Assembly (NCBI GenBank): GCA_016199835.1
Contig: JACQFX010000051.1
Location: 1 to 64,000 of the forward strand
Source of the DNA: Nitrosomonadales bacterium
GTDB taxonomy: Bacteria; Pseudomonadota; Gammaproteobacteria; Burkholderiales; Gallionellaceae
Length of the DNA: 64,000 nucleotides
Reading direction: 5' to 3'
Within the stretch, counting starts at the first letter, position 1, and each line of letters starts with the position of its first letter. Positions 37,760-41,499 of the stretch are shown here, one piece after another. The position numbers were made by a program, and so were the translations under genes. Below the pieces are notes generated by a model that saw only the letters and a program-made list of their open reading frames with translations, searched no databases and was not told where the DNA came from.

Positions 37760-38144
37760 CACTCCCCCCTTCATCTCGGAACCCATTTAAATCTGAATCA
37801 GACCTCTCATCAAAAACCGCCGCCTCATCGAGTAAACGCACGCCATCGGTCTGCCATAAATTTTCGTTCATGCCGACAGGTTTTTATATAGGGGAACACC
37901 CCATAATTTCACAATGAGTGTCTTGTAGCTCTGTACCGTGGATAGAGAGGGCGGCGAGATGCGGAGCAATGCACGGACATGGAACCTGAGCCTGCCGCAT
38001 ACCCAGGCCTGATCCAAAAGGTCTATATACTTTTTAAAATCGCTGAGACAAAAAAAGTTATTGCTGCTAGATTTCGCAACGATGCATTTGAATGTCTATA
38101 CATTTGAAACGATTTTAGAAATCAATCACAAGGGGTGCACTATC
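37760..38144. other. Gene-free region between the Sel1 gene and the CsgG-type gene
   Basis: The 385 bases hold no gene. They contain a small dyad GGGGAACACCCC, AT-rich tracts (TATATACTTTTTAAAAT near 38025) and a short direct repeat CATTTGAA before the CsgG-type gene. They must carry the promoters of the two divergent genes; TATACT near 38024 is a candidate -10. Confidence 0.45.
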
Positions 38145-38810
38145 ATGTATCGCATAATTACGCTGATGTTAATCGGATTCTTACCCGCCATTCTTGTTGG
38201 TTGCGCTACTGAAAGTTCAAAAACACTCGATACACCCCAAGTGAATTCCGCCAGCATTGAATACAATGGCCCCAAAACAAATCTTGCCATAGGGAAGTTT
38301 GATAATCGATCAAGCTTTATGCGTGGGCTCTTCTCAGACGGAATCGATCGACTCGGAGGGCAGGCCAAAACAATTCTCATCACGCATCTTCAACAGGCTA
38401 ATCGATTCAAAGTAATGGATCGCGACAACATGAAAGAAATCGAGTTTGAATCCAACTTGGCCGGGAAAGCACAAAAACTTAAGGGTGCCGATTTTGTCAT
38501 TACTGGCGACGTTACAGAATTCGGGCGCAAGGAAATCGGTGACCAACAACTGTTTGGCCTCCTCGGTCGAGGCAAGACGCAAATTGCTTACTCTAAAGTC
38601 AGCCTCAATGTAGTTAATGCAGAAACTTCCGAAGTTATTTTCTCGGTACAGGGAGCTGGAGAATATGCACTTTCCAACCGCGAAATTATTGGCTTCGGCG
38701 GTACTGCAAGTTATGACTCGACGCTGAATGGCAAAGTGCTTGACCTTGCCATCCGCGAGGCGGTTAATCGGCTGGTTGAAGGGATAGACAGGGGTAGTTG
38801 GAAGCCATAA
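38145..38810 (+). CDS. CsgG/HfaB-family outer-membrane lipoprotein
   Basis: A 221-aa lipoprotein. The signal ends in the lipobox LVGC (Cys20) and the mature part is CsgG-like (NLAIGKFDNRSSFMRGLFSDG, ADFVITGDVTEFG). CsgG forms the curli export pore, but this is a short relative outside any csg operon. It heads a three-gene lipoprotein operon with a DUF4810 protein and a GNA1162-family protein. AAGGGGTG precedes ATG at 38145. The region is AT-richer than its surroundings. Confidence 0.85.
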   Translation: MYRIITLMLIGFLPAILVGCATESSKTLDTPQVNSASIEYNGPKTNLAIGKFDNRSSFMRGLFSDGIDRLGGQAKTILITHLQQANRFKVMDRDNMKEIEFESNLAGKAQKLKGADFVITGDVTEFGRKEIGDQQLFGLLGRGKTQIAYSKVSLNVVNAETSEVIFSVQGAGEYALSNREIIGFGGTASYDSTLNGKVLDLAIREAVNRLVEGIDRGSWKP

Positions 38811-38828
38811 TAAATCGGTGAATTCGAC

Positions 38829-39182
38829 ATGAACAAAAAAATTTCATTCCTGATTTTGTTGGCCCCCCTGATTCTCACGGGCTGCGTCAACAAACCTACT
38901 ACCCTTTACCAGTGGGGGAGCTACGAGGATCAGATTTATGCAATGTATAGTGACCCTGGAAAGGTGCCTGTTGAAGAACAAATCCAAAACCTGGAAAGAG
39001 ACTACCAACAGGCCAGAGCTGAAAACAAATCTGTTCCTCCAGGCTATCAGGCTCATTTAGGTTACCTGTATTTTCAACTGGGAAAAACTGATCAGGCATT
39101 ACAATCATTCGAGACGGAAAAAATACTTTTCCCGGAATCGACACTTTATATGGATCATTTGATTGCGCGGATCAAACATTAA
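38829..39182 (+). CDS. DUF4810 lipoprotein
   Basis: A 117-aa lipoprotein (lipobox ILTGC, Cys19). The mature part reads TTLYQWGSYEDQIYAMY and ends in a TPR-like helix pair (GYLYFQLGKTDQALQSFETE), the DUF4810 pattern. The function is unknown. It stands 18 bases after the CsgG-type gene and 14 before the GNA1162-type gene, a trio seen in other proteobacteria. Confidence 0.85.
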   Translation: MNKKISFLILLAPLILTGCVNKPTTLYQWGSYEDQIYAMYSDPGKVPVEEQIQNLERDYQQARAENKSVPPGYQAHLGYLYFQLGKTDQALQSFETEKILFPESTLYMDHLIARIKH

Positions 39183-39196
39183 AGGGGTCTTCAATA

Positions 39197-39853
39197 ATGT
39201 GCCATATTTATAAGTGGATTAGTCTTTTCCTTTTACCCGCATTGCTTACGGCTTGCGCCACCCCGCCAAAAAATTACGACTATACTGCCTTTAGGCAAAG
39301 CAAGCCCCGCTCTATTCTTGTTTTGCCTCCCTTGAACAACAGCCCGGACATACGAGCAACATACAGCCTCTTGTCTGTTGTCACACAACCCTTGGCGGAA
39401 TCTGGCTATTATGTTTTCCCCGTTGCCCTGGTCGACCAAACATTCAAAGAAAATGGATTGAGTAATCCAGAAGAAATGCATCAAGCACCGCCAGAAAAAC
39501 TCAGGGAGATTTTTGGCGCGGATGCAACCCTCTACATCACCGTGACTCAATATGGATCTGCGTATCGGGTGGTCATGAGCGAAACAAGGGTTACGGCTAA
39601 TGCGAAATTAGTAGACAATCGAAATGGGCAATTGCTTTGGCAAGGAGATGCAACGGCTTCAGATTCCGAAGGAGAAAGAAACAATGGCGGATTGGTAGGT
39701 ATGCTTGTCAATGCCCTGATAAAACAAATCGCCAGCAATATAGGTGATCATGGAAGGCCAATTGCTCGCGTCGCGAGCTATAGACTAGTGGCAGCCAGGC
39801 CACCAAATGGACTACTCCATGGACCGCGCTCCCCCTTATATGAAAAAGACTAG
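39197..39853 (+). CDS. GNA1162-family lipoprotein (DUF799)
   Basis: A 218-aa lipoprotein (lipobox LLTAC, Cys20) of the family named after Neisseria GNA1162. SILVLPPLNNSPDIRATYS, DATLYITVTQYGSAY and the NNGGL segment are characteristic. It probably sits at the outer membrane with the two preceding lipoproteins. It ends before a strong hairpin terminator. Confidence 0.87.
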   Translation: MCHIYKWISLFLLPALLTACATPPKNYDYTAFRQSKPRSILVLPPLNNSPDIRATYSLLSVVTQPLAESGYYVFPVALVDQTFKENGLSNPEEMHQAPPEKLREIFGADATLYITVTQYGSAYRVVMSETRVTANAKLVDNRNGQLLWQGDATASDSEGERNNGGLVGMLVNALIKQIASNIGDHGRPIARVASYRLVAARPPNGLLHGPRSPLYEKD

Positions 39854-39946: not shown

Positions 39947-40585
39947 TTAAAACTTGTAACCCACGCCGAGCGACCAAACACTAAAACGATTTAACCCATT
40001 ATCATTGGTTCCCGCATTGTAGTTATCAAGATCGACACGCAAGGTTACATTCTTTGCGATGTCGTATTTCACCCCCAGGCCATAAGTAATATCCGTTTTC
40101 TTGCTTGACGCAATTGCCGTACCCACCCCACCTGGCCCTGTTGCAGTAATCGATTCATCTACGCTAACGCTAGCGACACCCAGCCTGCCCATCCCGGAAA
40201 ATCCGCTGCCAAACGGCATCGTGCCCGCCGCCGAGGCATTCCACGCTGTTGCTTTTGCATCGGCTGCAATAATTGCGGGGTTGGTACCTGTAGCCCTGTA
40301 TTCCACATTGCCAGAGGCCATGTAACCAGCCTGAACAGCCCAGTTCTGATTGAATTGATAGCCCAGTTGCATACCATAAGTAGTCGGGGTGTCTTTCACT
40401 GACGAAGAAAGACCAGTCACTCCCGCCGCAGTCAATATGGCATCCATCGCCCCCTTGTCAGCAGTAACTCGTGCCTGTCCAACGGCTCCATAGATATACA
40501 TACCCACGTTTTCATCCGCCCATGTTGCACCGGAAAAACTTGCCAATACCGTTGCTGCCAGCATCCCTATCTTAACTTTCCGCAT
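39947..40585 (-). CDS. Outer-membrane beta-barrel protein (OmpA/OMP_b-brl type)
   Basis: A 212-aa protein with a signal peptide (cleavage after TWA) and an eight-strand-type barrel pattern (YIYGAVGQARV, TYGMQLGYQFNQNWAVQAGY). It ends in the outer-membrane signature YKF. There is no peptidoglycan-binding domain. AAGGGGA lies before ATG at 40585. It may be a porin or adhesin; the ligand is unknown. Confidence 0.82.
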   Translation of the reverse strand: MRKVKIGMLAATVLASFSGATWADENVGMYIYGAVGQARVTADKGAMDAILTAAGVTGLSSSVKDTPTTYGMQLGYQFNQNWAVQAGYMASGNVEYRATGTNPAIIAADAKATAWNASAAGTMPFGSGFSGMGRLGVASVSVDESITATGPGGVGTAIASSKKTDITYGLGVKYDIAKNVTLRVDLDNYNAGTNDNGLNRFSVWSLGVGYKF

Positions 40586-40663
40586 CACAATCCCCTTAAA
40601 ATAACAGTCACCATTCTAGAAATCATCCAATCCTCCCGACTGCTTTTATGTGTGACAAAACGG

Positions 40664-40694
40664 ATGTCACTTATAGTGCGTGTAATTATGAGGC
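40664..40694 (+). promoter_or_regulatory. C-box-like operator/promoter
   Basis: ATGTCACTTATAGTGCGTGT resembles the operator remembered for restriction-modification C proteins such as C.Esp1396I. The dyad CACT-TAT-AGTG (40668-40678) has the same TAT spacer as the GACT-TAT-AGTC consensus, with both arms changed symmetrically. TATAGT could also be the -10 box. A wider dyad GTGAC/GTCAC is at 40652-40670. Confidence 0.55.
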
Positions 40695-40754
40695 GTCGCC
40701 ATATATAGGTCAAATCAATATCCTCATGGCGTTTCTTATTTCCAGTAAGTCGCC

Positions 40755-40994
40755 ATGGACTACGACCCTCTTCAACTATTCGGACTGCACCTGGTTCAGT
40801 TGCGTAAAGCACATGGTTGGTCACAGGAACGATTGGCCCTGGAAAGCGGGCTTGCCAGATCGTACGTTGGCGGAATCGAGCGAGGACAACGGAACCTGGC
40901 TCTCATTAACATATGCATTCTGGCGGAAACACTTGGAGTTCCTCCCAGTGAGATGTTGAACTTTTTCCAGAAGAAGAAAATGCGGTCAACCTGA
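40755..40994 (+). CDS. XRE-family regulator resembling RM controller (C) proteins
   Basis: A 79-aa helix-turn-helix protein: LRKAHGWSQERLALESGLAR followed by SYVGGIERGQRNLAL. The GIERGxRN recognition region is characteristic of restriction-modification controller proteins. A C-box-like site lies 60-90 bases upstream, suggesting autoregulation. No methyltransferase or endonuclease gene is nearby, so it is an orphan. It is divergent from the beta-barrel gene. Confidence 0.8.
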   Translation: MDYDPLQLFGLHLVQLRKAHGWSQERLALESGLARSYVGGIERGQRNLALINICILAETLGVPPSEMLNFFQKKKMRST

Positions 40995-41046
40995 TTCACC
41001 AATTAAAGCGCCAAGTTGAATTCATTTTGAATTGGCGACACCATCG

Positions 41047-41499
41047 CTACATCCCTCGCCCCAGCATCACCACCGCAACCGTCAGCAAACCCAGCGCAAG
41101 ATTCACCGCCACCAGTTTGCGTATGCTCGCCAACACTGCTCCGGCGCTGGGCCAATCCTGTGCTGCGACCAGTTTACTCAGTCGCGCGTAGGCGACGAAG
41201 TACACATAGGCGTAGATCAGCATCATGACCGTGCCCAGCGTGAGCATCGCATGCACGTAAGATGGAGCGCCAGCCATGCCGCCGAACAAATGGATCATGT
41301 AAAGGCCACTCGCCAGCAGCAGGAATACCGCCAGCCACACCCATTTGAAGAAACGGCTGAACACCTTGTCCCACAGGCGCAGGCGCTCGGGCGGCTGTAG
41401 CACTTCGACCGCGCTGGGGCGCAGCACCACATAGGCGAAGAACATGCCGCCGACCCAGATGATCACGGCAAAGAGGTGCAGCAGTTTGGAGATGTCCAT
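41047..41499 (-). CDS. CopD-family membrane protein
   Basis: A 150-aa protein with four hydrophobic helices, starting MDISKLLHLFAVIIWVGG, with conserved His and Trp residues as in the CopD/YebZ fold. Full-length CopD proteins take part in copper import; this short version may bind haem or copper, and its role is unproven. It is monocistronic beside rnhB. Confidence 0.82.
   Translation of the reverse strand: MDISKLLHLFAVIIWVGGMFFAYVVLRPSAVEVLQPPERLRLWDKVFSRFFKWVWLAVFLLLASGLYMIHLFGGMAGAPSYVHAMLTLGTVMMLIYAYVYFVAYARLSKLVAAQDWPSAGAVLASIRKLVAVNLALGLLTVAVVMLGRGM

Follow-up and report, generated by a model that had tools for sequence, protein, structure and literature searches.

The gene P0001 and the intergenic region in front of it form, with a probability that we put at roughly 60%, a self-contained two-way switch, which is organized like the region that controls a type II restriction–modification (R-M) system and is free of R-M genes. 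The locus lies in a 64,000-nucleotide stretch of a Nitrosomonadales genome (contig JACQFX010000051.1), which is referred to here as the window; its features are collected in Table 1. Three results bear on this reading directly: the homology of P0001 to the controller (C) proteins of R-M systems, the operator together with its uniqueness, and the arrangement of the two predicted promoters, whose geometry is conserved. Controllers are known to act as timers that protect a new host from being killed by the restriction enzyme. By a widespread branch in which the timer has been kept and the enzymes dropped, the circuit would be shown to have a use of its own and to lend itself to reuse.

Table 1. 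Features of the P0001 locus (positions in the window)
Feature	Position	Strand	Details
Divergent OmpA-like beta-barrel gene	39947–40588	−	PF13505, PF01389
Weak second box (TTGTCACACATAAA), facing the barrel gene	40645–40658	−	PWM score 12.0, weak
Left operator OL, conserved C-box 16-mer TGTCACTTATAGTGCG	40665–40680	+	dyad CACT-TAT-AGTG, 40668–40678
Right operator OR, TAAT-TAT-GAGG	40683–40693	+	15 bp from OL, center to center
Predicted leftward sigma-70 promoter P_div	40685–40713	−	−35 TTGACC (40713–40708), 17 bp, −10 CATAAT (40690–40685)
Predicted −10 of P_C, TATCCT	40719–40724	+	start about 40731
XRE/C-type controller gene P0001, 79 aa	40755–40994	+	ORF, homology

The controller protein

P0001 had been called from its sequence as a C-type XRE protein with a GIERG region, and homology bears this out: the open reading frame includes GIERGQRN, and the closest solved structure is that of C.AhdI (1y7y, E 1.6e-16), with C.BclI (E 4.9e-10), C.Esp1396I (E 4.4e-6), and NHTF of Neisseria (3vk0) being also among the sequence matches to solved structures. 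The start of the gene is fixed by an in-frame TAA 9 bp upstream, which rules out an earlier one. Pfam assigns the protein to HTH_3, and none of the NCBIfam models scores above its cut-off. In its homology to known C proteins, its length of about 80 residues and its single HTH, the protein has the sequence features of a C protein. The AlphaFold model (pLDDT 81.6, pTM 0.66) has NHTF and C.Esp1396I among its top Foldseek matches, none of which reaches E ≤ 0.001.

In C.Esp1396I, residues R35, T36, and R46 touch the bases and Y37 touches the backbone (PMC4041747). The same positions hold R35, S36, Y37, and R46 in P0001, all of them being invariant in 21 of the 21 aligned family members, and the exchange of T36 for S36 is a conservative change. 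Position 34 differs, being D in C.AhdI (as aligned) and A in P0001 and nearly all of its relatives; that A34 might be the cause of the CAC arm in the operator described below is only a guess.

The operator in the window and across the family

Upstream of P0001, the sequence ATGTCACTTATAGTGCGTGT (40664–40683) had been likened to the operator of C.Esp1396I, and it does resemble the printed one, in which OL begins with ATGTGACTTATAGTC and OR reads TGTGTGATTATAGTCAACA (PMC3758141). The window OL resembles its counterpart, with a real swap from GAC to CAC on both arms, and the operator is tandem, its right box (TAATTATGAGG) having diverged from the family consensus to a degenerate, weak OR. The 15-bp tandem register is the same as that of the Esp1396I OL/OR in an alignment for which one base between the two printed pieces was filled in. 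On the side of the barrel gene, the weak second box overlaps the block TTATGTGTGAC (40646–40656 on the forward strand), which adjoins OL, resembles a reversed half box, and is invariant in the three of three loci aligned (the window, L032, and L036).

A scan of genome contigs returned 222 relatives, and the upstream regions were read in 82 loci, these being the best 80 of the 222, the window, and two plasmid loci, less L100, which lies too near a contig end. The 16-mer is found within two mismatches in 40 of the 82, mainly in Betaproteobacteria; the boxes are in tandem, 15 bp apart, in 33 of the 40, and a single box lies nearer to the C gene in the other seven (L082, L102, L103, L106, L107, L108, and L111). 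Two of the 33 tandem loci, L038 and L039, carry not two but three successive boxes in front of the C gene, each 15 bp from the next. The arms CACT/AGTG are the consensus of the family and are old, because they are common to the family loci, with no local change. Of the paired change that the original prediction had read as a sign of co-evolution of the two arms, the shift from GAC to CAC on both arms stands, and the local co-evolution is not supported.

The C-boxes have diverged in the Pandoraea-type and the L076-type loci, and the 19 Pandoraea-type loci (L050–L074) have neither a recognizable box nor P_div. In these loci the C domain lies in a longer frame of about 239–312 aa, as drawn by a home-made gene caller and possibly by read-through, and a second related ORF is found about 1.3 kb downstream of the C domain.

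Two predicted overlapping promoters

A scan of 40550–41060 for sigma-70-like promoters returned a single site, P_div, on the minus strand with 10 of 12 matches, and the same scan of shuffled sequences returned a mean of 0.7 sites. As evidence for a promoter the match is weak in the window alone and, judged by comparison of the predicted sites, strong across the family. The best minus-strand promoter falls at the P_div register in 25 of the 33 tandem loci, a score of 10 of 12 is attained in 23 of the 33 (and in 1.4% of shuffles, the loci being related and not independent), and TTGACC is exact in 25 of the 33. The −10 element varies, including TATAGT (11 loci), TATGAT (8), TATCAT (3), CATAAT (1), TACGAT (1), and others, yet it remains near the consensus. 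The −35 element lies outside both of the C-boxes, so that binding to the boxes does not explain its conservation. In the window, the predicted P_div start (about 40678) falls inside OL and the −10 inside OR. This conserved leftward promoter is absent from the original prediction. An alternative reading, in which GTGACA of OL served as the minus-strand −35, was rejected, with only 7 of 35 loci having a −10 of at least four matches at 17 bp, and was replaced by TTGACC-17-TATAGT.

In the opposite direction, the predicted −10 of P_C has the form TANNNT in 33 of the 33 tandem loci and is not accompanied by a good −35, and OR is centered near −43 of P_C, as reckoned from the sequence. The two promoters overlap, so that by prediction P_C faces a strong divergent promoter that is covered by the putative C site. 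The L076–L110 group has altered C-boxes and a variable distance to the C start, and 17 of 23 loci there keep the geometry, in which the rightward TA...T begins 5 bp past the −35 of P_div; several loci of this group have, by the gene calls, no gene placed divergently for P_div.

The main rival of the two-way switch, which we hold to be unlikely, is that of a pure autorepressor, which would shut both P_C and P_div in the manner of a phage Cro/CI-type or toxin–antitoxin regulator, would be released by a signal or a partner, and would never activate. A weak rightward promoter that binding would block can also be fitted to OL and OR (the plus-strand best lies at one register in 24 of the 33 loci, with scores of 7–9), and for NHTF, which is among the matches of P0001, repression of the genes downstream of it has been reported (PMC10470515). 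The invariant TANNNT downstream and the placement of OR near −43, which is the position of an activator, argue against such a pure repressor. Conservation also makes it extremely improbable that the locus is a relic, left without a function today by an R-M system that has decayed. The lack of R-M genes nearby and the degenerate right box of the window would agree with a relic, but the box and both promoters are kept across genera, the frame of P0001 is intact, and the dN/dS against the L032 gene is 0.024 at a dS of 1.49 (dS is saturated for most other pairs). The P0001 gene is under strong purifying selection.

One apparent operator per genome

In the genome of 2.81 Mb, with a rated completeness of 99.77%, CACTTATAGTG occurs a single time and TGTCACTYATAGTGCG has one site at zero mismatches, none at one or two, and 21 at three, against 44 for its reversed control. 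No second C-box was found in this genome at up to two mismatches, nor, at the same stringency, an R-M locus elsewhere with a C-box of its own; the original prediction had raised both further sites and such a locus. Allowing up to one mismatch, TGTCACTYATAGNRCG gave 42 matches in 32 of 33 genomes (L039 being left out). Of these, 32 lie at the promoter of the C gene itself, one in every genome, and all 30 zero-mismatch matches are among them; the other 10 are fewer than the 25 of the reversed control. Exact matches to TTGTCACTYATAG in 28 genomes number 27 (2 for the control), of which 22 are at the C promoter, three are second boxes at a divergent gene (L082, L101, and L108), and two lie inside unrelated ORFs (L196 and L220); the window box begins with ATG and is thus outside these 27.

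For a wider regulon, these pattern searches, which covered the own genome and the sets of 32 and 28, gave nothing convincing beyond the C locus. There appears to be one operator per genome, so that the whole predicted regulon would be one intergenic region, which is easy to test. That P0001 controls genes elsewhere in trans, be it a distant R-M locus or a wider regulon, is highly improbable in our estimate: an N6_N4 methyltransferase is encoded in a 600-aa frame on contig C16 (22122–23273) and a weak D12 match is found on contig C7, but a second box is missing from the genome, and from contig C16 in particular, at up to two mismatches.

The divergent gene and its replacements

The barrel gene is likely to start at the ATG at 40585 (a GTG lies at 40588), with AAGGGGAT upstream, which would give a leader of 93 nt from the predicted P_div start, and the TTATGTGTGAC block falls in this predicted leader. 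The suggestion that P0001 could control this divergent gene is strengthened, at the level of prediction, by the conserved P_div within the operator and by the block in the leader. A barrel gene that is 73% identical lies divergently beside the C gene at L032, so that the pair is found in both the window and L032. The likeness at L036 is weak (27.5% over 80 aa by direct search), though single-linkage clustering joined it to the other two.

Elsewhere the gene in this position changes. A divergent ORF of at least 80 aa within 420 bp was called in 25 of 34 operator loci by the home-made gene caller, which missed the barrel genes of the window, L032, and L036 (besides the 25), and most of these genes are not related to each other. 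Among 20 divergent-side proteins compared with Pfam (19 nearest divergent genes or their neighbors and one L106 gene 608 bp away), 12 have no family and none is a DNA methyltransferase. Of the 25 divergent genes, 14 have a hydrophobic stretch, and the share among the 337 other ORFs that were called is 23% (p 0.0004, in a test that was chosen after seeing the genes and that counts related loci apart), and by sequence many of them look membrane-bound or exported.

Besides OL, six boxes were observed within 350 bp upstream against 0.69 expected; that of L048 lies in coding sequence, that of the window is weak, and scores of at least 15 are reached at L082, L101, L108, and L112. Strong second boxes of this kind by the divergent gene are confined to loci that lack P_div, with 4 among the 15 loci without it and 0 among the 25 with it (Fisher p 0.015). 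In this count L040, with TTGACC and a poorer −10, was placed among the loci without P_div and L039, with TCGACC, among those that have it, and the kinship of the loci is ignored, as it is in the promoter shuffles. This distribution suggests that the two layouts may serve the same end, namely control of the divergent gene.

Absence of R-M genes and genomic surroundings

A linked R and/or M gene, which is a feature of C proteins, is not found at the P0001 locus, in agreement with what had been noted from the sequence: Pfam detects none among the neighbors, and a crude motif screen none among the window ORFs of at least 100 aa. The barrel side is flanked by three consecutive genes of the CsgG family, DUF4810, and GNA1162-like lipoprotein types (38142–39853), and the other side by CopD-like and RnhB genes. 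A small ORF partner 3′ of the C gene was considered and rejected, the gap of about 50 bp to the convergent CopD-like gene being too short. The relatives compared share the CopD–RnhB block and differ in the gene that follows the CopD-like one on its 3′ side, so that the insertion is not bounded by an empty site.

Several of the homologues sit in mobile or defense surroundings. A ScaI-type R-M pair (RE_ScaI and N6_N4_Mtase, L040:6967–9348) lies 1.7–3.3 kb from the C gene of L040, a D12 methyltransferase and a DndB-like gene adjoin that of L039, RES is near L035 and TIR near L041, and L113, on Paraburkholderia pSYMBR3459, is surrounded by AbiE genes and by DUF3577, antirestriction, and DUF3275 genes, the last three of which are presumably ICE genes. 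Another XRE gene is found beside the ScaI-type pair, all within 1–3.4 kb of the C gene, and no second C-box was seen in the L040 genome at up to one mismatch. The operator search returned three records from a plasmid collection, and the phage search returned two weak phage records. A 13-kb contig of a viral collection (L226, of L226/L233) carries a single-box operator with a C gene, and there a prophage-like element may be the carrier of the module.

Such surroundings (L040, L039, L041, L035, and L113) would also suit a role in immunity, in which the resident C protein activates an incoming restriction gene before the methyltransferase acts, thereby killing the cell and excluding the R-M system, with the divergent gene being incidental; mutual exclusion of R-M systems has been reviewed (PMC12707154). 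We regard this as improbable: no R-M system with this box at its R or M gene was found in the 28 genomes searched with TTGTCACTYATAG, and the operator search of the plasmid collection gave three records. More tentatively, and at clearly worse than even odds, the two-way switch of P0001 may represent a general case: in Betaproteobacteria, switches that controlled R-M systems would have turned into independent and portable regulators acting in two directions, each consisting of a C gene and a fixed pair of overlapping promoters, with interchangeable genes (often for membrane or exported proteins) in the methyltransferase position, and carried on islands, ICEs, and an occasional prophage. If true, such a portable switch would give a pulse of the cargo upon entering a new cell and then silence it.

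Proposed switch

We infer that the protein binds the operator, that it both activates and represses, and that the barrel gene is the transcript of P_div. In the proposed model, a C-type dimer would occupy OL and then, cooperatively, OR. With OR on the −10 and OL on the start of P_div, which should be a fairly strong promoter, bound C would close leftward transcription of the barrel gene. OR near −43 of P_C would at the same time be at the usual spot for an activator touching the RNA polymerase, and bound C would raise C transcription, whether by direct activation or by clearing away the polymerase that competes with it. In a cell that lacks C or has only just received it, the leftward gene would be expressed first; as C accumulates, it would close the leftward gene. 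This direction of control, with C on and the divergent gene off, is proposed by analogy with the Esp1396I circuit, in which C dimers sit on OL and OR, and with that of Kpn2I. The locus would allow a concrete test of a pulse-then-silence switch applied to surface proteins.

Comparison with known systems

A family of C switches that lack R-M genes, share a conserved pair of promoters, and vary in their cargo was not met in the literature searched, outside of which lies the main survey of C-protein motifs, reportedly that of Sorokin et al. 2009 with its ten motifs. The literature searched likewise gave no orphan or solitary C protein under that phrase, and among the matches listed for the box sequence none is on the subject by its title. 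The Kpn2I paper does speak of C-like XRE proteins that have no R-M system (PMC6237814).

P0001 resembles C.Esp1396I and C.AhdI in its size, HTH_3 family, and base-contact residues (with S36 for T36) and in the 15-bp tandem C-boxes, and control of a divergent or separate promoter would be expected by analogy. It differs from them in having no R or M gene and in the change of the GAC/GTC arms to CAC/GTG, and from C.AhdI in having A34 in place of D34. In Esp1396I, OR lies on the −35 of the C promoter (PMC3758141), whereas the window OR lies on the leftward −10. In Kpn2I, the strong divergent promoter of the methyltransferase gene is repressed by C, and its repression raises the weak C promoters that overlap it (PMC6237814). 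The strong divergent promoter overlapping the C promoter is predicted here from sequence, and the barrel gene takes the same position as the Kpn2I methyltransferase. The Kpn2I C site, however, is described as lying inside the C gene, as a roadblock, whereas the window site (40665–40693) is upstream of the start at 40755.

Among XRE regulators of non-R-M genes, NHTF and NceR of Neisseria are comparable, with NceR acting on ompA; as compared by its description, NceR differs in activating ompA in trans and in being 99 aa long (PMC10470515). Phage modules of an XRE regulator and a smORF are alike in having an XRE protein predicted to be C-protein-like and a small local target, and differ, again as compared by description, in activating the smORF genes and in residing in phages (PMC10432266). 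The parts of the P0001 locus are known ones, and what we rate as the new element is an R-M-free C switch with a changing cargo in the methyltransferase slot.
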